Shown: positions 1-31,446 of the stretch, piece by piece
Position numbering within the stretch: the stretch's first letter is position 1
Layout: each line of letters starts with the position of its first letter
The notes under the pieces: model-generated
Seen by the model: the letters and a program-made list of their open reading frames with translations, nothing else
Databases searched by the model: none
Told to the model about the DNA's origin: nothing
DNA from: a virus
IMG/VR virus record: IMGVR_UViG_3300009169_000062
Location: 1-31,446 of that record
DNA length: 31,446 nt
Reading direction: 5' to 3' (one strand)
Program-made: the position numbers and the translations under genes

Positions 1-107
1 ATAATAGTATTAAATATTATAATATTTTATATTGAGTATATTGTAATGAATTAAGAACTTCCTCGACGCTCGCGCGAAGATCTCCCTCGATTTCTTGTTT
101 GAAGTAC
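1..107. repeat. Left arm of inverted repeat A (copy of 3152-3258)
   Basis: Bases 1-107 are the exact reverse complement of 3152-3258, the last 30 codons of the polymerase-like gene plus 16 bases beyond its stop. The match breaks at base 108 on one side and runs off the window on the other. Because the polymerase gene is intact at 3152-3258, this copy looks like the duplicate. It contains a GC-rich core unlike its AT-rich surroundings and no gene of its own. Confidence 0.97.
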
Positions 108-2078: not shown

Positions 2079-3242
2079 ATGAATAAACCTTTCTTATTAA
2101 ATTATTTAATAGAAGTTGATGATAGACTTAAAAATGAATATGATAATCCTATTTCAAGAATAGATTATATTACATTTTTAGATTGGTTTGATAGTATGTT
2201 ATCTTTCAAAAAAAGCTATGAATTTTCTTTTCATATGTCTGATGAAAGAATAAAATGGGGTCGTATAAAAACTGAAGATGGTATTAATTGGAAATTAAAA
2301 ATTATTCTTGACACATTAGCATTATATGGAATAATATATCGTTCCAATTATAGATTTGGTGAAATTTCATATAGTAGATCATATCAATATACACAAGATT
2401 TTTTGGATAGTATTAAATTTGAATTAGCGCATATTAATGAAGAAGTTAATATAAAAATATTCAATACTATTTCCATAGAAAATAGAAGTGATACAGAAAA
2501 TTCTCAATATAAATTATTAATGTCTTCACGTTTTAATATTGATTGTGATAAAGCTACAAAATGGGTATTTAATCAATATGAAGATCAAATAATAGACAAA
2601 GATAAAGCCAATAGGTATTTTAAAATGATTTACTCAATGTTTTATAAAAATATTTTTGTTATTAAAGGTGAACTTAATAATAGAATTTATTCATCGTTCA
2701 ATACAATTAAAAAAGAATTAAGACAATTCTGTACAATAGACGGAATTTATTTACATTCATTAGATTTAAAATCTTCACAAGCATATTTTCTTGCTCATTA
2801 TTTACGTAAAAAATATCCTGATGATACAAATGTAAAAACATTTTTTGATTTAATTGTAAACGAAGATTTATATTTATATTTAAAGGATAAATTAAATTAT
2901 TCTACAAGAGATGAAGCAAAAGAGGAATTCTTTCATTTCTTATACAAAGGAAATATGGGATATGTACCTGTGCAAAGAATTATTATGAATGAATTTCCCT
3001 CTGTTTATAATCATATTATGTCCTTAAATAGAGAATGCAAAAATAACAAAACTTCTTTATCTGTTCTTTTACAGAAAATTGAATCTTCCATATTCATTCC
3101 AATTTGTGAGAGATTCATAGACAAGGGTTGTCTTTCTGTTCATGATTCTCTGTACTTCAAACAAGAAATCGAGGGAGATCTTCGCGCGAGCGTCGAGGAA
3201 GTTCTTAATTCATTACAATATACTCAATATAAAATATTATAA
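2079..3242 (+). CDS. Compact family A polymerase-like protein without exonuclease
   Basis: Encodes 387 residues. The C-terminal half follows the order of a family A (Pol I) palm and fingers. R202 and SS205-206 match the GR.SS region. D229 in LDLKSSQAYFLAHY matches motif A. R277-x3-K281-x7-Y289 matches motif B exactly in spacing. H355-D356 in SVHDSLYF matches motif C. Differences: the motif A glutamate (the sugar-selecting 'steric gate' position) is Tyr236, the residue after the motif C aspartate is Ser rather than Glu, and the Gly after the motif B Tyr is Lys. The N-terminal 200 residues match nothing I know and have no 3'-5' exonuclease motifs. The protein is far shorter than Klenow (about 600). 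It could be a repair or replication polymerase, a primase-polymerase or an RNA polymerase-like enzyme. The last 30 codons lie in inverted repeat A. Confidence 0.75.
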   Translation: MNKPFLLNYLIEVDDRLKNEYDNPISRIDYITFLDWFDSMLSFKKSYEFSFHMSDERIKWGRIKTEDGINWKLKIILDTLALYGIIYRSNYRFGEISYSRSYQYTQDFLDSIKFELAHINEEVNIKIFNTISIENRSDTENSQYKLLMSSRFNIDCDKATKWVFNQYEDQIIDKDKANRYFKMIYSMFYKNIFVIKGELNNRIYSSFNTIKKELRQFCTIDGIYLHSLDLKSSQAYFLAHYLRKKYPDDTNVKTFFDLIVNEDLYLYLKDKLNYSTRDEAKEEFFHFLYKGNMGYVPVQRIIMNEFPSVYNHIMSLNRECKNNKTSLSVLLQKIESSIFIPICERFIDKGCLSVHDSLYFKQEIEGDLRASVEEVLNSLQYTQYKIL

Positions 3243-3258
3243 TATTTAATACTATTAT
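3152..3258. repeat. Right arm of inverted repeat A
   Basis: Exact inverted copy of 1-107. It starts at codon 358 of the polymerase-like gene, just after motif C, and includes the stop codon and a 16-bp perfect palindrome at 3232-3247. This copy is in its natural context because the reading frame and protein alignment run through it without a break. Confidence 0.97.
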
Positions 3259-3339
3259 CCATTATATGTACACCGTACAGCAGGCCAACAACTTGTGAGA
3301 CTCCTCATTTTCTATTATTTGTACACTAATTATATTGAA

Positions 3340-3376
3340 AAAGGGATGCTATTCTGGCTAAATAGTACATCCCTTT
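3340..3376 (+). terminator. Hairpin after the polymerase-like gene
   Basis: A 9-bp stem AAAGGGATG/CATCCCTTT continues, after a 2-base bulge, into a 5-bp stem CTATT/AATAG with a 7-base loop. It lies 98 bases after the polymerase stop. There is no T-run after it, so a plain intrinsic terminator is not certain. It could also be part of an origin or packaging signal. Confidence 0.45.
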
Positions 3377-3390
3377 ACCTTATAATGAAA

Positions 3391-3411
3391 TGTATTGACG
3401 CGATCAATACA
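3391..3411. promoter_or_regulatory. Palindromic site TGTATTGA/TCAATACA
   Basis: Perfect 8-bp arms separated by the 5 bases CGCGA. The shape fits an operator for a dimeric regulator or a core site for a recombinase. No other copy was noticed in the window and no integrase is encoded here, so its role is open. Confidence 0.45.
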
Positions 3412-3477
3412 GTGTAAAAATAATTATTATTATCCTACAAGATCTCTCCTTTATGTTAATTTTCTGTTAAATTGTGT

Positions 3478-3508
3478 ATACTCAAGCAAGACTCAAATAC
3501 TCAAGCAA
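3478..3508. repeat. Pair of 12-base direct repeats
   Basis: ATACTCAAGCAA occurs at 3478-3489 and again at 3497-3508, 19 bases apart, with a partial copy (ACTCAA) between. Short spaced direct repeats in a gene-free region next to a polymerase gene resemble iterons of an origin, but two copies are few for that claim. Confidence 0.45.
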
Positions 3509-3663
3509 ATCACAGTTCAGTTTGAAATGAACCAACTGGTAGGGAAAGCACTGAGATTAAAAAACAAAAAGGAGCCAATGATATAGAGGCTTTGAAATCG
3601 CATCATTTTCGACCAGGTATAGTAATATTTTATTTGCGCATGCGCTTGCGTGCTTGCAGCGGG

Positions 3664-3766
3664 CCCGCAGACTTGTAGTCTTTACAGAGGAGTGCTTGCA
3701 GATGGGGGAATTCGAGGAGATTGCGGGAGAGAAGAGGAAGATGGGAGAGTTGCGGGCCTCCGAGTA
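3664..3766. repeat. Inverted repeat B, GC-rich purine-rich block before the terminase
   Basis: Exact reverse complement of 31344-31446 (103 bases). One strand is nearly all purines in places (GGAGATTGCGGGAGAGAAGA), and the GC content is far above the rest of the window. It opens within the palindrome GCGGGCCCGC (3659-3668) and contains the hairpin AGACT-TGT-AGTCT (3669-3681). It ends 36 bases before the small terminase start. The composition suggests a foreign insertion or a constrained packaging or origin element. Confidence 0.9.
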
Positions 3767-3779
3767 ATTGTAATTAAAA

Positions 3780-3793
3780 TATATAAATAAAAT
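3780..3793 (+). promoter_or_regulatory. TATATAATAAAAT motif copy (one extra A)
   Basis: TATATAAATAAAAT, 23 bases before the small terminase start. It is a one-base-insertion variant of the dispersed motif and has the usual spacing to the ATG. Confidence 0.4.
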
Positions 3794-3802
3794 AAATTCA
3801 TT

Positions 3803-8277: not shown

Positions 8278-9360
8278 ATGAAAAAGATAAACGAAATGAA
8301 GGCCGAAAGAGCCGAACTTATTTCTAAGATGGAAACTATATCAAATGGTGAATCCCTTAATGATGAACTTCGCGCCGAATGGTCTGGTTACGATACCCAA
8401 GTTAAAACAATCGACAATGATATTACATTGGCTGAACGTCAAGAAGAATTAAATAAACAAGCTGTAAGGAAAGAAGAAAACATTCCTACTCCTGTCGAAG
8501 AAAGAAAATCTGTAGGCGTTCAATTTAGAGATTGGATGTTTGAAGCAGTTGAAAAGAAAGATACTCCTGCATTTCGTGCGGATCCTCTTTTATCTTCAAC
8601 AGATACTGGACTTATTAACAAAACAATTGCTCCAGGTATTGATGTTCTTAAATCGCCTGCACTTGAATTTCTAAAAAGTTTAGGAATTACATTTTTTACA
8701 GGATTAAATGGTAATCTTTGCCTTAATTCAATGGCAGAAGATACTGCAACATTCCCGGGAGAAAATACCGGTGCTGCTTCTTATAGTGCTGCACCAACTG
8801 CACTTACACTTACAGCAAGACGTGTAACACATACACAAGCAATTACAAAAGAAACACTCGCTCAAAGCAATCCTACTATCTATAATTCTATAGTTCAGAA
8901 TTTAGTTGATGGTCTTTATAATGCTGTTGCAAATGATGCATTTGATACATTACAAACAGATGCTCCAGGACAAAGACAAACTGCAGGTATTACATTTGCA
9001 GATATTGCTGCTTTGGAAGCTTCATTGTCTTATGCTAATTTAGGAACTGTTAAATTTGTAACTACTCCTGCTAATAGGGCAACATTAAAAACAACCGCAA
9101 AATTTACAGATCAAGCCGCTATTTGGGGTGAAGATAATACAGTGTTAGGTTATCCTGCATATGCTGCACCTTGTGCAAATCTATCAATGATGTATATGGG
9201 TGATTTTTCAAAATGCGTTGTTGGACAATGGGGTGGAGTAGAAATTGTAGTAGATCCTTATACAGATGCTAAGAAAGGTCTTATTAATTTAACAGCTATC
9301 GGTTTATTTGATACTGGTGTTGTAAATCAAAAGGGTCTTGTTTGGAAATCTAATGCATAA
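8278..9360 (+). CDS. Major capsid protein 1, HK97 fold, with scaffold domain
   Basis: Encodes 360 residues. Residues 1 to about 75 are a charged coiled-coil (KAERAELISKMETI...), the delta domain expected to be removed by the protease. The rest is an HK97-fold shell: N-arm with ADPLLSSTDTGLINKT, a spine and A domain with RRVTHTQAITKETLAQS, and a final DPYTDAKKGLINLT. It is paralogous along its whole shell part to the next gene. It probably forms most capsomers of the head. Confidence 0.9.
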   Translation: MKKINEMKAERAELISKMETISNGESLNDELRAEWSGYDTQVKTIDNDITLAERQEELNKQAVRKEENIPTPVEERKSVGVQFRDWMFEAVEKKDTPAFRADPLLSSTDTGLINKTIAPGIDVLKSPALEFLKSLGITFFTGLNGNLCLNSMAEDTATFPGENTGAASYSAAPTALTLTARRVTHTQAITKETLAQSNPTIYNSIVQNLVDGLYNAVANDAFDTLQTDAPGQRQTAGITFADIAALEASLSYANLGTVKFVTTPANRATLKTTAKFTDQAAIWGEDNTVLGYPAYAAPCANLSMMYMGDFSKCVVGQWGGVEIVVDPYTDAKKGLINLTAIGLFDTGVVNQKGLVWKSNA

Positions 9361-9380: not shown

Positions 9381-10295
9381 ATGAAAGAAATAAATGAAAA
9401 GCCTACTTTTAGAGATTGGCTTAAAGAAGCGGTAGATAATGGTAGATCAGCAAGTTATCGTGCAGATCCTCTTTTATCTTCAACCGATACAGGATTAATT
9501 AATAAAACTGTATTTCCAGGCATAGATACTTTAGTATCACCTGGTGAAGCATTTTTACGTCAACTTGGCGTAACATTCTTCCCTGGATTAACTGGAAATT
9601 TTGCTGTTCCTTCAATGGCAGAAGATACAGGTGCATTTGTAGTTGAATGGGGTTCAGATTATACAGTTGATGCTTGCGCAGCTTCTGCAAATATGGCACC
9701 AAGTTCACTTACTCTTGCTGCAAGAAGAGTTACTCACTCTCAAGCAATAACAAAAGAAACTTTAAATCAAAGTTCTCCTGGAGTTTATAGTGCAATTGTT
9801 CAAGCCCTTATTGATGGAATGTGGAGCGCTGTTACTTATGATTTGTTTGATAATGTACGAGTTGATTGTACAAGTTCAAATGAACATATTGTTAACGTTC
9901 CAACAGCTTCAATTAACATAACATTTACAGATTTAGTTAACATGGAAGCAAGTTTAGGTGGAAAGATTTTAACATCACCTGCTTATGTTGTAACGCCAAC
10001 AATGCGTGCATCATTAAGTACAACTGCTAAGATGACAAATCAAGAAGGAATTTTTGAAGATGGAAAGATAAATGGATATCCTGCTTATGCAGTCCCTGCA
10101 CAAAATACTACATTTACCTCATTTGGTGATTGGAGTAGAGCATGTGTTGGACAATGGGGTGTACCTGAAATAATTGTAGATCCTTATACTGATGCTAAAA
10201 AAGGACTCATAAATTTGACTATTGTAGGGTTATTCGATACTGGCGTATTTAATAAAACTGCTATTGTTAATCTTTGTGATCCATCAGTGAAATAA
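9381..10295 (+). CDS. Second capsid protein, paralogue lacking the scaffold domain
   Basis: Encodes 304 residues. After a short start (MKEINEKPTFRDWLKEAV) it aligns along the whole length with the preceding capsid protein. It shares ADPLLSSTDTGLINKT, the RRVTH.QAITKETL run and DPYTDAKKGLINLT, but it lacks the 75-residue coiled-coil front part. It may form pentons, decorate the shell, or co-assemble with capsid protein 1. The first residues, FRDW, equal a segment just after the scaffold domain of the first copy, so the duplication lost exactly the cleaved part. It ends 10 bases before a strong terminator. Confidence 0.88.
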   Translation: MKEINEKPTFRDWLKEAVDNGRSASYRADPLLSSTDTGLINKTVFPGIDTLVSPGEAFLRQLGVTFFPGLTGNFAVPSMAEDTGAFVVEWGSDYTVDACAASANMAPSSLTLAARRVTHSQAITKETLNQSSPGVYSAIVQALIDGMWSAVTYDLFDNVRVDCTSSNEHIVNVPTASINITFTDLVNMEASLGGKILTSPAYVVTPTMRASLSTTAKMTNQEGIFEDGKINGYPAYAVPAQNTTFTSFGDWSRACVGQWGVPEIIVDPYTDAKKGLINLTIVGLFDTGVFNKTAIVNLCDPSVK

Positions 10296-11239: not shown

Positions 11240-11303
11240 GCATTCTGAATGGCAAAAGATGGCCCGAGATGAATCGAAACATAAAAGTAATATGATACCT
11301 TAA
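11226..11303 (+). CDS. Possible 25-residue protein
   Basis: A short frame overlapping the 3' end of the head-closure gene by 14 bases and stopping 2 bases before the next start. It encodes 25 charged residues (MKEFRHSEWQKMARDESKHK...). It fills an otherwise unused 66-base gap between tightly packed genes. There is no homology evidence, so confidence is low. Confidence 0.25.
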   Translation: MKEFRHSEWQKMARDESKHKSNMIP

Positions 11304-20685: not shown

Positions 20686-21660
20686 ATGAGTTATTTAACA
20701 CAAATAATTTTAAAACAAGGGATTACAAATCCTGGAACTGTATTAAGTTTAGCAGAACCTGCATATGATACAAGTGCTAATTTGTTATATGTAGGAAATG
20801 GTATTGGAAATGCCGCAACATTAATTGGACCAATTTCAGTTGATGAATTTGCAACAATAGAATATGTAGATGGATCGTTAGGTGCATTGGCAGGAGTTTA
20901 TACAACATTTGAATATGTTGATGGAAGTTTAGCAGCAATTCCTGTCCCAGATGTAACTAAAGAATATGTAGATGGATCGTTAGGTGCATTGGCAGGAGTT
21001 TATACAACATTCGAATATGTTGATGGAAGTTTAGCCGCGATTCCTATAGCAGATGTAACTAAGGAATATGTTGATGGATCTTTAGGAACAAAATATGATA
21101 AACCTATAAATACAGATGTTATATTAGGATTAAACGCTGTTTCTGACCCGAGTTATGCAGGAAGTCAAAATGTTGTAATAGGAAATAACGCAGATGATGT
21201 AATGACGGGCGGTATAGACAATACTATTATAGGATTTGAAGCTGGACAATTTATATATGATGGACAACAAAATATTATTATAGGAAGTGGGGCAAATCCT
21301 GATGGTGATGATTCAAATTCTATTGTCATAGGTTATCAGGCAGCGGGTAAAGGATCTAATACAACAGTACTTGGAAATTCTTCATGTATAGAAACTTATC
21401 TTTATGGACAATTATTCATAGATGATGTTTCAGTTAATTTTGGTAATGTTGAGACATATACATTTGTAACTGGAGATACTGAAGTTCCAACACCAACAGG
21501 ATCAAATAGAATTTTAGGTATTAAAAACATAAGTGCAGGCGATGTTTCAGTTTATATTTTAGGTGGAGCAACTATTGATAATTTAACATCAAAAGTTCTT
21601 TTATCTATGAATACGTTGGACATCTATGATTATGATGCAACAAACTGGTATATAGTATAA
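20686..21660 (+). CDS. Trimeric tail fibre with head-like repeats
   Basis: Encodes 324 residues. The front has repeats of EYVDGSLGALAGVYTTF (34-residue unit, two full copies and a partial third). The middle is a YadA-like head region: NVVIGNNA, NTIIGFEAG, NIIIGSGA, NSIVIGYQAAG and NTTVLGNSS. These repeats build left-handed parallel beta rolls as trimers. It probably forms a side or tip fibre used for surface attachment. A terminator follows the gene. Confidence 0.8.
   Translation: MSYLTQIILKQGITNPGTVLSLAEPAYDTSANLLYVGNGIGNAATLIGPISVDEFATIEYVDGSLGALAGVYTTFEYVDGSLAAIPVPDVTKEYVDGSLGALAGVYTTFEYVDGSLAAIPIADVTKEYVDGSLGTKYDKPINTDVILGLNAVSDPSYAGSQNVVIGNNADDVMTGGIDNTIIGFEAGQFIYDGQQNIIIGSGANPDGDDSNSIVIGYQAAGKGSNTTVLGNSSCIETYLYGQLFIDDVSVNFGNVETYTFVTGDTEVPTPTGSNRILGIKNISAGDVSVYILGGATIDNLTSKVLLSMNTLDIYDYDATNWYIV
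20860..21063 (+). repeat. 102-base direct repeat in the fibre gene
   Basis: Two adjacent copies of 102 bases (20860-20961 and 20962-21063), nearly identical in sequence, each coding a 34-residue unit (EYVDGSLGALAGVYTTF...). A partial third begins at 21064. The near identity suggests recent duplication by slippage or recombination. Confidence 0.85.
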
Positions 21661-21664
21661 TAAT

Positions 21665-21684
21665 AAGGGGCTTAAAAACCCCTT
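21665..21684 (+). terminator. Hairpin after the trimeric fibre gene
   Basis: AAGGGG/CCCCTT stem with an 8-base loop, starting 5 bases after the stop at 21660 and followed by an AT-rich stretch with a T-run. A reasonable intrinsic terminator. Confidence 0.65.
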
Positions 21685-21701
21685 TAAAATAATTTTTTTA
21701 A

Positions 21702-22676
21702 ATGAGTTATATCACAGATACAGATATTTCTTATGTTGATGCTTCTATAGAAACATTAAGACTTAATGTTAATAGTTCATTAAATGGTATTTGGGTTGAG
21801 TTAGGATATGATGATGTTTCATTAAATCAAATATGGGATTTAATGGCTACAAATGCATCAGTTAATAATGGATTATCACAAAAGTTAGACAATACAACAG
21901 ATACATTTAGAGGAGTTTTAACAGTTGATGGCTGTATGTATTTGATTGGTAACTTTTATCAAAATGGTTCAACATATACTGTTAATGCTGAAAATTTAAA
22001 TACAAACGCCGATTTTATAACAATGCGTGCAAACGCAGTTCTTCAAATTCCTGATGGTTCAATTTCTGGTATTAGAGTTGTTAAAGCAGATGGAACAAAT
22101 GATGTTATTTTAGGAACTGCAAATGATGCAATAATGAGAATTGGTTGGAATGGAGATACACTTGAAGCAATTGCAACAAGAGAAGATGCTCCTGTAAATA
22201 ATTGGTACGCATATTGGGATGATGGTTCAACAATGTTTAAAACCTATGATTTAAAAGCATATATTGATAACAAAGCAACACAACTATCAGTTCATGCATG
22301 GGCTGGAAATACAGGAGGATTAACAATAGCAAAAAGCACAACAAGATATGCAGCACCTGTTTCAACAACAGGAATAGAACTTAGTGATGTTCCAGCAAAA
22401 ACAAGAAATATAGTTTGGCATAATGCAACTATACGTGATTTAGCAGTTAGAACAAATGGAAACCCTGGAGCTGTTGATAATACAGTAATGGTTACGAAAA
22501 ATGGTTTGGATACATCATTATATACAATATTAAATAATGTAGAAACAGGTGATAGTAGCACAAGAAGTTTTGTTGCTGCAAAATATGATGAACTTGGAAT
22601 TAAAATATCAACAGGTAATGGAAATGTAGTTCCTTGGAGTTGGGCATTTGAAATAGTTTACATATTAGATGAATAA
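21702..22676 (+). CDS. Tail fibre or baseplate fibre protein
   Basis: Encodes 324 residues. It starts with short helical repeats (YVDASIETLRLNVNSSL, LGYDDVSLNQIW) typical of trimeric shaft starts, then a beta-rich region (NADFITMRANAVLQIPDGSISGIRVVKADGTN). The end is rich in strands. This pattern, without a known domain name, is common for phage fibre chains with a tip. It lies between two other fibre genes. Confidence 0.65.
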   Translation: MSYITDTDISYVDASIETLRLNVNSSLNGIWVELGYDDVSLNQIWDLMATNASVNNGLSQKLDNTTDTFRGVLTVDGCMYLIGNFYQNGSTYTVNAENLNTNADFITMRANAVLQIPDGSISGIRVVKADGTNDVILGTANDAIMRIGWNGDTLEAIATREDAPVNNWYAYWDDGSTMFKTYDLKAYIDNKATQLSVHAWAGNTGGLTIAKSTTRYAAPVSTTGIELSDVPAKTRNIVWHNATIRDLAVRTNGNPGAVDNTVMVTKNGLDTSLYTILNNVETGDSSTRSFVAAKYDELGIKISTGNGNVVPWSWAFEIVYILDE

Positions 22677-22691
22677 AATAAAAAACAATAA

Positions 22692-24188
22692 ATGAGCGCA
22701 TACGAAACCGATGTTATAGTAACAGTATCAGATGCCTGCATTAATTCTTGGGTAGTTGATCCATGCATATATGGTGTAATGGGCCACTTCATAATTAATG
22801 CGCAAAGAGGCGATAAAGGAGATCCAGGAGGTATATCTGATGCATCAGTTCTGGGTAATGGTCATTTTTGGGAGAATGGAATATTAAATAATGATAATTT
22901 CGTAAGAGAATCTTCATTAGGATTAGGATTTGCATATGGTATTGATGGTAAAATATATGTAGATGTAAGTACAATAGCTGGAGGAGTAACATTTGCCTAT
23001 GTAGACGTTTCATTAAATGCAAAAACAGATAAGACATATACATCAAAGCAGGATATTTCAATTGGATTAAAAACAGACAAAACTTATACTTCAAAACAGG
23101 ATATTTCAATTGGATTAAAAGCAGATAAAACTTATATTGATGCTTCATTATTATCAAGAGACATAGCAATTAATTTAAGAGCAACAAATGCAAGTGTTAA
23201 TAGTGCATTCATTACAAATACATCTTTAGGTTTAGTTAAAGTTTATGATCTAACTCCTTATGCAACAAATGTAAGCGTAGGCAATGCATTCATTACAAAT
23301 ACATCTTTAGGTTTAGTAGGAATATATGATTTAACTCCTTATGCAACAAATGTAAGTGTAGGCAATGCATTCATTACAAATACATCTTTAGGTTTAGTAG
23401 GAATATATGATTTAACTCCTTATGCAACAAATGTAAGTGTAGGATTAGCAATTGAAAATTTTGCAACAAATGTAAGTGTAGGCAATGCATTCATTACAAA
23501 TATATCTTTAGGACTTGTTGAAATTTATGATCTAACTCCTTATGCAACAAATGTAAGTGTTAATAGTGCATTCATTACAAATACATCTTTAGGACTTGTT
23601 GAAGTCTATGATCTCACTCCTTATGCAACAAATGTAAGCGTAGGCAATGCATTCATTACAAATACATCTTTAGGTTTATCATTTGATAAAGTTAATTATA
23701 TAAATGATTCATCTTTAAATCAATCAAAATTTAAATATGTAGCAGGATATTTGGAGCCAAGTATAGCATCGAGTGGTGGAACCTTAATAAGTTTAACAGA
23801 TGTTTCAATAGTTTCTCCTATATCAAATCAAGTTCTTGCATATGATACAGTATGGAAAAACATGGCAGCAGTTGATGTATCAATATGGAATGTTGTAAAT
23901 GCATCTGATTATTTTTGGATTTTTTCAGATGTTTCATTAACATCACCTTTAAATAATCAAGTTTTAGCTTATCATGGAGCATCATCTACATTTGTAAATA
24001 AAACAATTGATAATTCTTTATATGAATATACAGAAGCCTCAATTTATTTTCAAAAAAGTATAACATTTGCTTCACCTGCAAGTAATGGAACAGGAAATAT
24101 GGGAGATTTATCATTTGATGCTTCATATTTTTATGTATGCACATCAACTAATAAGTGGATGAGAATATTGGGAATAACAGCGTATTAA
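22692..24188 (+). CDS. Repeat-rich tail fibre
   Basis: Encodes 498 residues. Early it has a short collagen-like run (RGDKGDPGG). Then two copies of a 16-residue unit (KTDKTYTSKQDISIGL), followed by six copies of a 27-residue unit (ATNVSVGNAFITNTSLGLV.. YDLTPY) with one 13-residue short unit inserted. The end has LTDVSIVSPISNQVLAYD and SDVSLTSPLNNQVLAYH, related to the short fibre protein at 18092. It likely forms an extended trimeric shaft with a tip. The repeat number may vary between isolates. Confidence 0.8.
   Translation: MSAYETDVIVTVSDACINSWVVDPCIYGVMGHFIINAQRGDKGDPGGISDASVLGNGHFWENGILNNDNFVRESSLGLGFAYGIDGKIYVDVSTIAGGVTFAYVDVSLNAKTDKTYTSKQDISIGLKTDKTYTSKQDISIGLKADKTYIDASLLSRDIAINLRATNASVNSAFITNTSLGLVKVYDLTPYATNVSVGNAFITNTSLGLVGIYDLTPYATNVSVGNAFITNTSLGLVGIYDLTPYATNVSVGLAIENFATNVSVGNAFITNISLGLVEIYDLTPYATNVSVNSAFITNTSLGLVEVYDLTPYATNVSVGNAFITNTSLGLSFDKVNYINDSSLNQSKFKYVAGYLEPSIASSGGTLISLTDVSIVSPISNQVLAYDTVWKNMAAVDVSIWNVVNASDYFWIFSDVSLTSPLNNQVLAYHGASSTFVNKTIDNSLYEYTEASIYFQKSITFASPASNGTGNMGDLSFDASYFYVCTSTNKWMRILGITAY
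23183..23680 (+). repeat. Six 81-base coding repeats in the fibre gene
   Basis: Near-identical 81-base units, each coding a 27-residue module with ATNVSV..AFITNTSLGL and YDLTPY, plus one shortened 39-base unit. Units 2 and 3 differ by very few bases. Boundaries are approximate. Confidence 0.85.
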
Positions 24189-26643: not shown

Positions 26644-26955
26644 ATGGACAATCACATTTCAATATATCAAAAAAATACAAAGACTATCGCTATTCTTGTT
26701 AATGGCATATCTGATTTATCTCCATATGTTCCATATCTCTCTGTTAAGAAAAAGGTGACTGATGCAAGTACTGTTCTTTTTAAATCTGGTACTGTAAGTG
26801 ATCCTTCAACTACCTTTGCATTTGCGCTTACAACTACTGATACAAGTTTAGCAGTTCTCGATTACGTATATGATGTGACTATTGTTGGTAATTCAAATGT
26901 AATTACACTTGTAAGAGATAGATTTACAATTATGGAAAATGTAATCGAAATCTAA
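26644..26955 (+). CDS. Beta-sandwich baseplate-type protein, BppU-like
   Basis: Encodes 103 residues, nearly all beta. The order LSVKKKVTDASTVLFKSG, TTFAFALTTTDTSLAVLDYVYDVTIVG, NVITLVRDRFTI matches the N-terminal domain of the BppU (baseplate upper) fold: a V-K strand, an aspartate turn, Y-DV-I strand and a late 'V.D.F.I' strand. It may attach receptor-binding proteins to the tail. The call rests on pattern, not on a search. Confidence 0.55.
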   Translation: MDNHISIYQKNTKTIAILVNGISDLSPYVPYLSVKKKVTDASTVLFKSGTVSDPSTTFAFALTTTDTSLAVLDYVYDVTIVGNSNVITLVRDRFTIMENVIEI

Positions 26956-27152: not shown

Positions 27153-27504
27153 TTATGACAATGTTCCTATAACTGAGCAAACAAAGGAAGGAATGTCTCT
27201 TACGACTGATGATCAAAAATGGATAAAATTATTATTTGATCGCCAAGATGAATGCACTTATGAATTCATTTCAAAAACATATGATTTACATGCAAAACTT
27301 ATATGTGATACGGTGCGTGATATGCTTGATGATATTAGAAATGAGCTTAAAGATATAAAATTTGAAATACAAGAAATAAGGGCAGATTTAAAAACACTTC
27401 ATGGTATTGCCGAAGAAAATCGTAGAGATATACGAGAATTACAAAAATTAAGTAAAGAACATGACTGGAGAATCACTCATATAGAGAATAAATTAGGAAT
27501 TTAA
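27142..27504 (+). CDS. Coiled-coil protein upstream of the holin candidate
   Basis: Encodes 120 residues. From residue 50 on it is a long coiled-coil (DTVRDMLDDIRNELKDIKFEIQEI and the like) with heptads of Ile, Leu and acid residues. No membrane segment. Similar small coiled-coil proteins precede holins in several phages, where they can act as spanin-like or regulator proteins, but this cannot be read here. Its last base overlaps the next start. Confidence 0.6.
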   Translation: MDNNYDNVPITEQTKEGMSLTTDDQKWIKLLFDRQDECTYEFISKTYDLHAKLICDTVRDMLDDIRNELKDIKFEIQEIRADLKTLHGIAEENRRDIRELQKLSKEHDWRITHIENKLGI

Positions 27505-27761
27505 TGTTAACAGATTTAAACGAAAAAGCAGCAAAAAAAGTTTATAAAAAAATGCTATCATTTGACAATATAGGCAAAAAAAGTAATAAAACATGGAAAT
27601 TTGTTTCAAAATTACTAACACGTGTATTGCCTGTCATAGCTGGCGCGATAATTCCTTTGCCTATCTCTGAAGTTTTAAAAGTATGGATTATTTTTGCTTG
27701 TACTGTATTTGTAAGTATAATTTCAACTCTTTCAGAATTAACTACAAGTGAAATCACTTGA
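27504..27761 (+). CDS. Holin candidate
   Basis: Encodes 85 residues. A basic N-terminal half is followed by two hydrophobic segments, about 36-51 (LLTRVLPVIAGAIIPL) and 57-77 (EVLKVWIIFACTVFVSIIST), and a short acidic end. The size and two-segment layout fit a class II holin, which would time lysis by permeabilising the inner membrane. It is the last late gene, just before the hairpin array. No endolysin gene was recognised nearby. Confidence 0.55.
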   Translation: MLTDLNEKAAKKVYKKMLSFDNIGKKSNKTWKFVSKLLTRVLPVIAGAIIPLPISEVLKVWIIFACTVFVSIISTLSELTTSEIT

Positions 27762-27764
27762 TAA

Positions 27765-28057
27765 GGCTTAAAACAAGCCCTCGATCGCACAGGATTCATC
27801 GAGTTAAAATATTATAGTAAAGTTATAGGATACCTTAACAAAGGTATAAAAGTGAAGGAGGACCCTCGAATGAGAATCCTCCTCTTGGTGTTGGTACGAA
27901 CAACCGAACCAACATCATATATAAAATAAAGACTAAAGGAGTTAGGGATGAAACGGCCCTTCTCCTATACTATATATTTCTTCAAAAAAGGAAGGTTCTG
28001 TTACTATGATTCGCAGACTCCTTCCCGATTGGACGAGGGTATGGAGTACCCTCAATC
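27765..28057 (+). ncRNA. Array of eight hairpins, probable structured RNA
   Basis: Noncoding stretch between convergent genes. Stems in order: GGCTT/AAGCC (27765-27779); CTCGAT/ATCGAG (27780-27803); ATACCTT/AAGGTAT (27830-27847); AGGAGGA/TCCTCCT with an inner CTC/GAG (27856-27883); GGTGTTGGT/ACCAACATC with one G-T pair (27887-27916); AGGAG..AGGG/CCCT..CTCCT (27937-27966); GGAAGG..TCTG/CAGA..CCTTCC (27990-28025); GATT..GAGGGTA/TACCCTC..AATC (28027-28057). Linkers are AT-rich. The G-T pair in stem 5 and the T-rich tail after stem 8 both favour a plus-strand RNA, made as the 3' end of the late transcript. It could be a stable small RNA, an assembly signal, or a multi-hairpin 3' UTR. I know of no matching family. 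Confidence 0.65.
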
Positions 28058-28075
28058 TATTTATTCAATTTTTCT
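28027..28075 (+). terminator. Terminator at the end of the hairpin array
   Basis: The last stem (4 bp GATT/AATC plus 7 bp GAGGGTA/TACCCTC, loop TGGAG) is followed by TATTTATTCAATTTTTCT. The T-run lies on the plus-strand side, so it fits termination of rightward late transcription. It also separates the late genes from the leftward operon. Confidence 0.7.
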
Positions 28076-28331
28076 AAATATTTTTAATTATTTTTTCTTC
28101 ATCAATTTTAATTTCTTCAATTATTAAATCAATTTCTTTAACTTTGAAGAATTGTTTTCCTAAATAATATACATCTAACGTATATTTTTCTTCAATTTTA
28201 TTTAAAAATCTATGCAATGTATTTCTTGTCACTCCATGAACATTACAAAAATGTTTAATTGATGCATAAACTTCTCCTTCTATAGAGACCACATTTGTAC
28301 CTTTGTTTCTTTTTCGTTCTACTTTTTTCAT
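28074..28331 (-). CDS. Small helix-turn-helix protein
   Basis: Encodes 85 residues. The stretch YASIKHFCNVHGVTRNTLHRFLNKIEEK (about 27-55) reads as a helix-turn-helix, with a basic N-terminus and an acidic tail. It probably binds DNA as an early regulator. It is the last gene of the leftward operon, and its start overlaps the previous stop by 4 bases (ATGA), so it is coupled. Confidence 0.7.
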   Translation of the reverse strand: MKKVERKRNKGTNVVSIEGEVYASIKHFCNVHGVTRNTLHRFLNKIEEKYTLDVYYLGKQFFKVKEIDLIIEEIKIDEEKIIKNI

Positions 28332-29026
28332 TTTAATAAGCCTTTAGATTTAAATAATTTTTTTCTTGATAACATATTTGCATAATGGTGTACGTTTCCA
28401 CGTGTTGTATTAAACATTTCTGCAATTTGATCATATGTTAATATATCCTTAGGAACTATTTTATCTTCAACCACCATTTTATTTTTAGGTGCATATGGAT
28501 AATTTATTATTAAGTAATTTCTAAAAGGCTGTGCTAACTTATAAATTACAAATACTTCTTCATTAGTGCATAATTTATATTCAATTGCATCGCCTTTTAC
28601 TTTTTTTCTTTTAATTATTTCTCTTTCACTTTTATCACATTTTTTTAACCAGTGATCTTCCTGTGTTTCGGTTGTTGTTTCAAAACCAGGAACTAATCTT
28701 CCTTCTTTTATTGCAAGTTTAATGCCTTTTATAGCCTTTTCACGAAATTCAATATCTTGCCATTTTTCTTTTGAACGTTTACCTATTTCTATGGCATATT
28801 CAGGATGATCTATATGATATTGTTTTAATAATTTACTTCTTTGTTTACGTTTTTCAGGATGTTTAACATATGTATCTTTTAAAGATTCAGATATTTTATT
28901 TGCATATTCTGGGTCTTTCCAAACTTCTTTCATAAGTTCAGACATTTCTTGTCTCTTCTCTGGTGTATAAAGAGATCTTAAAATTTCCTTTGTTTTTTCT
29001 TTTAAATGTTCGCCCTTCTGTGCCAT
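28328..29026 (-). CDS. Protein with NUMOD3-like repeats and a C-terminal HTH
   Basis: Encodes 232 residues. The N-terminal half repeats a short helical module with aromatic and proline marks: SELMKEVWKDPEYA, DTYVKHPEKRKQRSKLL, QYHIDHPEYAIEIG, EKWQDIEFREKA. This looks like the NUMOD3 DNA-binding repeats of homing endonucleases. The C-terminus has TYDQIAEMFNTTRGNVHHYANML, a clear helix-turn-helix. No nuclease motif was seen. It may be a sequence-specific DNA-binding regulator or a decayed homing endonuclease. Confidence 0.65.
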   Translation of the reverse strand: MAQKGEHLKEKTKEILRSLYTPEKRQEMSELMKEVWKDPEYANKISESLKDTYVKHPEKRKQRSKLLKQYHIDHPEYAIEIGKRSKEKWQDIEFREKAIKGIKLAIKEGRLVPGFETTTETQEDHWLKKCDKSEREIIKRKKVKGDAIEYKLCTNEEVFVIYKLAQPFRNYLIINYPYAPKNKMVVEDKIVPKDILTYDQIAEMFNTTRGNVHHYANMLSRKKLFKSKGLLK

Positions 29027-29295
29027 TATTTCATTCCATTTAATAAATCTTCATCAGATAATACGCCAATGTATTGATATTCACATTCTCCATTTGCTAT
29101 TTGAGGATATAACTTATACATCCAGGCTTTAAATGCTTCTCTCGAATCAATAGGCGAAGATGGAAATGCTTTATTCCATTCTTTTAAAGCATTAGAAATT
29201 TGTCTTTTTGTTAACTTATGATTAAAAGCATCTCCAAAAAAACCTTTTTTTCCATAAAAATCATTAATGTAATTGATGAATTCTTGTGCTTTCAT
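29026..29295 (-). CDS. Unknown early protein
   Basis: Encodes 89 residues, mostly helical, with LTKRQISNALKEWNKAFP in the middle that could be a helix-turn-helix-like element and an acidic end. The leader before its start is ACGAACAACA, the same as that of the first gene of the operon, so it can also start its own transcript. Function unknown. Confidence 0.65.
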   Translation of the reverse strand: MKAQEFINYINDFYGKKGFFGDAFNHKLTKRQISNALKEWNKAFPSSPIDSREAFKAWMYKLYPQIANGECEYQYIGVLSDEDLLNGMK

Positions 29296-29319
29296 TGTTG
29301 TTCGTTTTTAAATTATAAT

Positions 29320-29328
29320 GTAAAGGTA
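29320..29328 (-). promoter_or_regulatory. Promoter-like -7 box for the 29295 gene
   Basis: On the minus strand it reads TACCTTTAC, close to the Bacteroidota -7 box TAnnTTTG, 25 bases before the start. It is followed by ATTATAATTTAAAAACGAAC, a leader similar to that of the gene at 29710. A clear -33 box is not visible. Confidence 0.45.
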
Positions 29329-29371
29329 ATCAAAATAATCTAATCGAAGAAAGATTTAATGTTAAAAAATG

Positions 29372-29710
29372 TTAAAATGCCCAAGGATATGCTTCAATAA
29401 TTAATTTTTTATTTTTGTCAATTAATTCTTGCATTACTTTTGCAGCAAAGGGAACACAAAGCATTCCACGAGGATCATTACCAATTTTCATTTGTATCAT
29501 AGCATTGTAAGATGCAATTTTCTGTGCCGGTGATAAGTCAGTAATTTTTGAAAACATTTTTTTGGTTGCGTCAGCAATTTCCTGCTGTTCAAAAGTAAAT
29601 TCTTCTTCAGATAAACATGTCACATTTCCATTAGGACTTTCAACAGTTTGTCTTGCTTTAAAAGCTTTCATTCTGTTTCTTTCATTAAATCTTCTTTCTT
29701 GTCTGTTCAT
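29372..29710 (-). CDS. Unknown early protein, first gene of the leftward operon
   Basis: Encodes 112 residues. The N-terminus is very basic (NRQERRFNERNRMKAFKARQ), then a helical part with SPAQKIASYNAMIQMKIGND, ending in an aromatic YPWAF. I do not recognise the family. The basic front end may bind nucleic acid. It has the conserved 34-base promoter block upstream and is likely one of the first genes expressed. Confidence 0.7.
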   Translation of the reverse strand: MNRQERRFNERNRMKAFKARQTVESPNGNVTCLSEEEFTFEQQEIADATKKMFSKITDLSPAQKIASYNAMIQMKIGNDPRGMLCVPFAAKVMQELIDKNKKLIIEAYPWAF

Positions 29711-29735
29711 TTTGTTGTTCGTTTTTTAATTATAG

Positions 29736-29769
29736 TGTAAATATAAACAATATTCTTGACATGAAGAAA
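29736..29769 (-). promoter_or_regulatory. Early promoter of the leftward operon
   Basis: Exact inverted copy of 119-152. On the minus strand the -7-like box is TATATTTAC (29737-29745). Beyond the exact block the similarity goes on for several bases with a single-base gap (AAAAAG before TTTCTTC). The conserved block plus the same type of leader strongly suggest co-regulation with the gene at 187. Confidence 0.6.
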
Positions 29770-29796
29770 CTTTTTATCATTTATTTTCATATAATA

Positions 29797-29808
29797 TATA
29801 TAATAAAA
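29797..29808 (+). promoter_or_regulatory. TATATAATAAAA motif before the 29818 operon
   Basis: 21 bases before the start at 29818, back to back with the leftward early promoter. It would serve the rightward operon. Confidence 0.45.
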
Positions 29809-29817
29809 CTATAAATT

Positions 29818-31108: not shown

Positions 31109-31428
31109 CCATATCTGTAGAAACATATGTAGACCCGGTTCCTTATAATAGAATTCCTGATATTAAAAATTCTGTACATAACGCTTTAAGAGAACAATTG
31201 AAAGCAAAGAATAACAATCTTGATTGGACCACAGAAACAATAACCGCCGAATATAAGAAAGGTGATAGTAATCGTAAATGTGATGATAGATTACTAATAA
31301 CAATGAGTGTAGATGTAAAGAAGATACTTAAATGTTATCTCTATACTCGGAGGCCCGCAACTCTCCCATCTTCCTCTTCTCTCCCGCAATCTCCTCGAAT
31401 TCCCCCATCTGCAAGCACTCCTCTGTAA
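31105..31428 (+). CDS. Small unknown protein with a C-terminus read into repeat B
   Basis: Encodes 107 residues as it stands. The first 79 or so are an ordinary mixed protein (MTISVETYVDPVPYNRIPD...). From 31344 the frame enters inverted repeat B and the last 28 residues are low-complexity Ser/Pro (ATLPSSSSLPQSPRIPPSAS), which looks artificial. If the sequence at 31343 is joined directly to 3767, the frame ends in TAA right there, giving a natural 79-residue protein. So the C-terminal tail is probably a by-product of the repeat. Confidence 0.6.
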   Translation: MTISVETYVDPVPYNRIPDIKNSVHNALREQLKAKNNNLDWTTETITAEYKKGDSNRKCDDRLLITMSVDVKKILKCYLYTRRPATLPSSSSLPQSPRIPPSASTPL

Positions 31429-31446
31429 AGACTACAAGTCTGCGGG
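31344..31446. repeat. Second copy of inverted repeat B at the window end
   Basis: Exact reverse complement of 3664-3766, running off the end of the window. It is GC-rich and pyrimidine-rich on this strand (for example CTCCCATCTTCCTCTTCTCT). It ends at the centre of the palindrome GCGGGCCCGC that is complete at 3659-3668. Confidence 0.97.

Follow-up and report, generated by a model that had tools for sequence, protein, structure and literature searches.

An array of eight hairpins between the converging operons of an uncultured tailed phage

What role might be played by a row of eight hairpins, unrelated to one another in sequence, that is packed between the ends of two phage operons transcribed toward each other? 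The question is raised by a contig of an uncultured tailed phage, 31,446 bases in length and hereafter termed the window, in which a single rightward block carries the terminase, portal, protease, capsid, and tail genes, as judged from its open reading frames and their Pfam and PHROG profile matches. The last gene of the rightward late operon ends at position 27761, and a leftward operon occupies 28074–29710 on the minus strand. The noncoding gap between these converging operons is almost wholly filled by hairpins, with nearly no spare sequence. The initial annotation of this DNA had described eight hairpins between convergent operons, and they are indeed present, in 27765–28053.

The genes that border the array are both small. 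The last gene of the rightward operon (27504–27761, plus strand) encodes an 85-amino-acid protein with a hydrophobic segment, which is holin-like by appearance only; it has no Pfam or PHROG match, and a single-protein scan found no relatives in viral or genome contigs. The last gene of the leftward operon (28074–28331, minus strand) likewise encodes an 85-amino-acid protein, with a weak DUF7726 match below the curated cut-off.

Architecture of the hairpin block

The eight discrete hairpins differ in size, in internal organization, and in the strand on which they fold best. Four are assigned to neither strand: H1 (27765–27779) with a 5-bp stem (GGCTT/AAGCC), H2 (27780–27803) with a 6-bp stem (CTCGAT/ATCGAG) and a 12-nt loop, H3 (27830–27847) with a 7-bp stem (ATACCTT/AAGGTAT) and a 4-nt loop, and H6 (27937–27966), in which a 5-bp outer stem encloses a 4-bp inner stem and is followed by a T-rich tail on the minus strand. 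On the plus strand H4 (27854–27884) forms a 7-bp stem that encloses one of 3 bp; on the minus strand, which it prefers, it has 13 contiguous pairs with a T-rich tail and is terminator-like. H5 (27886–27917) favors the plus strand, with a 10-bp stem that includes one G–U pair and a 2-bp inner stem. H7 (27990–28025), assigned to the minus strand, has a 6-bp outer stem (GGAAGG/CCTTCC) and an inner stem, and is directly followed on that strand by a T6 tract (27984–27989; A6 on the plus strand). H8 (28035–28053), assigned to the plus strand, combines a 7–8 bp stem (GAGGGTA/TACCCTC) with a weak terminator-like site. Inner stems are thus nested in H4, H5, H6, and H7, and a ninth short stem (27745–27760) overlaps the final late gene at its end.

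The main stems are almost purely Watson–Crick, with almost no G–U pairs or mismatches. The block contains no repeated unit sequence, and the few short repeats that were found fall largely outside it; its only other match inside its own genome is a 26-nt partial one near 11284, at a gene junction. Tandem-repeat RNA or DNA elements of the CRISPR-like, type III antitoxin-like, and REP-like kinds, all of which call for a repeated unit, were rejected as candidates, and CsrA-type decoys and integron attC sites were set aside because a repeated motif is absent.

The block is noncoding and is not a chance product of its composition. As the initial annotation had noted, its GC content exceeds that of the genes around it (0.38 vs. 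about 0.27–0.28), and the short frames within it, such as that from 27948, are probably spurious. Dinucleotide shuffles yielded a mean of 4.5 hairpins and a maximum of 7, so that none of 500 reached the observed 8; hairpins of −10 kcal/mol or better number 5, compared with a shuffle mean of 1.4 and a maximum of 4 (again 0 of 500), and exact arms of at least 6 bp number 6, compared with 1.6 ± 1.1. The fold of the whole region has a z-score of −5.5, with none of 100 shuffles as stable, and local folds reach −6.1 (plus strand) and −5.6 (minus strand), with none of 300 shuffles as stable in either case. Shuffled sequence of matched composition does not fold equally well. A sliding scan along the full genome places the block among the very best stretches, in the company of lone strong hairpins, for example one near 10295. 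By GC-corrected fold energy it ranks ninth of 315 noncoding gaps (200–900 nt) in the compared phage loci, and its hairpin density is the fourth-highest among the 30 lowest-energy gaps listed; dense hairpin clusters are thus rare, but not unique.

Terminator-like sites and strand signals

The block contains three terminator-like sites, two on the minus strand and one on the plus strand, where 0.3 ± 0.5 would be expected. H7 on the minus strand has the makeup of an intrinsic terminator, a GC-rich stem directly followed by a T-tract; the T-score of its T6 is 4.23, within the top 0.4% of the genome, and this is the sole strong T-tract in the block. The T-rich tail of H6 on the minus strand scores 2.57 (top 7%). 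H8 on the plus strand conforms to a loose terminator consensus, with a T-score of only 0.83, which lies at the 55th percentile from the top and is average for the genome. Most of the stems are followed by no T-tract. The fold energies of individual hairpins also diverge between strands: H4 reaches −20.3 kcal/mol on minus versus −14.6 on plus, and H5 reaches −14.6 on plus versus −11.3 on minus. Promoter-like sites of the sigma-70 type are no commoner in the block than in shuffles.

These signals do not support the earlier assignment of the array to the plus strand, which had been drawn from a G–T pair and from a T-tail after the last stem. The strongest T-tract and the 13-bp stem of H4 are both found on the minus strand, contrary to that assignment, and the tail after H8 is a weak plus-strand signal. 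H5, with its one G–U pair, does favor plus. The strand signals are mixed, with the T6 of H7 and the stem of H4 favoring minus, and H5 and, weakly, H8 favoring plus, which is what would be expected of a zone serving both converging transcripts.

Relatives, comparable elements, and other features of the genome

Homologues of the block were sought at several levels. Neither strand matched any family of Rfam 15, GOLLD and ROOL included, at the gathering score, upholding the earlier view that the array is unlike known phage RNAs; at a permissive E-value the best matches were eukaryotic families below their own cut-offs. DNA searches of phage records and plasmids found no homologue of the block. A covariance model of H4–H6 run against 39 related loci recovered itself and weak matches, none of them a homologue; having read the best two residue by residue, we judge these weak matches to be chance. 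A 16-mer of H8 had seven matches over viral contigs, about the chance expectation, and was discarded as a lead. A literature search found no description of such hairpin arrays.

The phage itself is similarly isolated, with no close relative found by single-protein scans or DNA searches. Profile searches with the terminase, the major tail protein (named by phrog_1407), and the tail-tip protein nonetheless delineated a family with conserved gene order, in which terminase identity reaches about 60% in short partial contigs (L100, L101) and is about 35–43% in contigs spanning more of the genome. In the relatives whose contigs include the end of the late operon (G002, G023, G025, and G026), that operon closes with a small conserved protein, whose homologue in the window is encoded at 26644–26955, then a short protein that is by appearance mostly coiled-coil with a membrane segment, and then a hairpin, which in G023, G025, and G026 is followed by an orthodox T-tract. 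The eight-hairpin block is absent from the relatives with conserved gene order, both by sequence and by covariance model. A motif common to G023 and G026, scanned over viral contigs, recurred only in those two and in unrelated contigs. The lack of homologues in the phage records, plasmids, and related loci searched is in itself weak evidence.

Several known systems share some attributes of the block. The late-operon terminators of G023, G025, and G026 likewise follow the last late gene, in the syntenic position, but each comprises one hairpin with an orthodox T-tract on the plus strand rather than an array. Terminators that are bidirectional or overlap are known from convergent gene pairs (Ju, Li, & Liu, 2019, as cited in PMC8060035), and overlapping 3′ untranslated regions have been reviewed (PMC7821165); the block resembles such terminators in its convergent placement, in hairpins usable from both strands, and in a T-tract on at least one of them, and departs from them in that its hairpins number eight rather than one or two and for the most part lack a T-tract. 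GOLLD and ROOL are likewise phage-encoded, noncoding, and extensively structured; however, they are conserved RNAs that contain pseudoknots, measure from about 660 to more than 800 nt, and often neighbor tRNA genes (PMC12286853), whereas the block has no Rfam match and no tRNA was found here. The three gaps denser in hairpins than the block, among the 30 lowest-energy gaps listed, all belong to loci related to the Pasteurella phages Pmp7 and Pmp8. Their clusters (L031, 4431–4784; L034, 7267–7602; L040, 2257–2487) lie between HNH and small terminase genes and, like the block, pack 7 to 10 unrelated short hairpins into 230–350 noncoding nt. They differ in lying between same-direction genes upstream of the terminase and in consisting mostly of palindromes with 4-nt loops, and they have no sequence relation to the block.

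The ends of the contig present a separate peculiarity. Window positions 1–107 are the exact reverse complement of 3152–3258, and the last 103 bases (31344–31446) that of 3664–3766, such that the sequences copied inverted at the contig ends flank 405 nt that lie upstream of the small terminase gene. The simplest reading suggests a circular genome split by an inverted repeat no longer than about 615 bp, with one copy at 3152–3766 and the other spanning the unassembled junction; only the edges of the repeat (about 100–125 bp) are proven, and an assembly artifact could still be its source. The same two-ended pattern occurs in G002 and G023, and the ends of G024 and G026 are inverted copies of each other. 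As the near-identity of G023 and G024 may mean that one sample was assembled twice, these cases are not all independent. The hairpin array lies outside the inverted repeat. Upstream of the small terminase gene, 3243–3802 comprises about 560 noncoding nt with no local structure by fold z-score against shuffles; its right end is GC-rich with purine-rich G runs, a similar G-rich motif is found near GGGGAGTGGG in noncoding regions of relatives, and a cos-like site here would be a guess. A structured noncoding stretch of about 540 nt in relative G002 (L099, 10761–11300; local z-score about −4) lies between a small plus-strand open reading frame and minus-strand HNH genes, largely inside that genome's inverted repeat and with no Rfam match at the gathering score.

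Other repeats were encountered elsewhere in the window. An inverted 53-nt repeat links 111–163 to 29725–29776 (90% identity, 34 nt exact), placing similar sequence upstream of gene 187–672 and in the divergent region 29711–29817, possibly as shared early promoters. The tail-fiber-like genes at 20686–24188 abound in motifs such as YVDGSL and ATNVSVG and contain near-identical tandem repeats, with units within 20859–21086 and 23181–23678. Gene 9381–10295 is a paralogue of the preceding major capsid gene (8278–9360): the capsid regions that the two match in relatives coincide, and DNA repeats connect them.

Interpretations of the array

With moderate confidence, we interpret the block as a zone of bidirectional termination and 3′-end protection, an extreme form of a known kind. 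From its position, its structure, and the T-tract of H7, we infer how transcription, termination, transcript ends, and stability would be arranged. Leftward transcripts of 28074–29710 would most likely end at H7, by its stem and T6, with H6 and H4 as back-up stops, while rightward late transcripts would traverse the block to stop at H8 or beyond it. The stems in between would fold in the 3′ untranslated regions of both transcripts, where they may bar read-through into the opposing operon and block 3′-to-5′ decay of both messages. This interpretation draws on the location exactly between convergent operons with almost no sequence to spare, the excess of terminator-like sites, the T6 after H7 together with H4 being strongest on the minus strand, the equally extreme stability of both strands, and the terminator or hairpin that relatives of the same gene order carry at the end of the late operon. 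Stems unrelated in sequence furthermore suit a role of hairpin shape, as opposed to a sequence read by one protein. Among the functions proposed by the initial annotation, an RNase-resistant 3′ end fits best, and the decoy, packaging signal, and regulatory RNA found no positive evidence. Against a shared 3′ end, a terminator needs no more than one or two hairpins, the number that the relatives have, leaving the excess to eight unaccounted for; most stems lack a T-tract, that of H8 on the plus strand is average, and the searches found no homologue.

The same fold energy and number of hairpins, both well outside the range of shuffles, could instead denote a discrete structured RNA, about 300 nt long and transcribed from one strand, that works independently in regulation, as a decoy, or in assembly. 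The block is noncoding, GC-rich for this genome, and contains nested stems, and G002 (z-score about −4) and G023 have other structured noncoding regions near the late–early junction. Those regions, however, have no sequence in common with the block, and the mixed strand signals, the near absence of G–U pairs and mismatches from the main stems, promoter-like sites at shuffle frequency, and the failure to find an Rfam match or a homologue in the 39 related loci, phages, or plasmids render such an RNA somewhat unlikely. Nearly perfect Watson–Crick stems that are equally good on both strands are also what a DNA-level element would exhibit, its hairpins extruded or formed in single-stranded DNA at a site of replication, packaging, or recombination, and the Pasteurella-type clusters do lie where a packaging site is expected. 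The block, however, adjoins neither terminase nor replication genes, and the inverted repeat at 3152–3766, which does adjoin the terminase genes, excludes the array and is not locally structured; we regard this alternative as unlikely. Recently acquired, palindrome-rich DNA without function would account for the absence from relatives and for a GC content above that of the flanks, but it is improbable: the number and energy of the hairpins are far beyond those of composition-matched shuffles, and stems this close to perfect should erode if selection did not maintain them.

A further prospect, which we consider quite improbable, is that phages possess a new class of noncoding element, represented here, in which hairpins unrelated in sequence are lined up and retained for their shape alone; it would fold in the transcripts of both strands and set the fate of two converging operons. 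If the block is merely a terminator cluster, it would be ordinary biology in an unusually dense form. If it acts on both transcripts, it would constitute an unusually elaborate separation of converging operons in a small phage genome, and would offer a simple natural model for how hairpin number relates to termination and mRNA stability.
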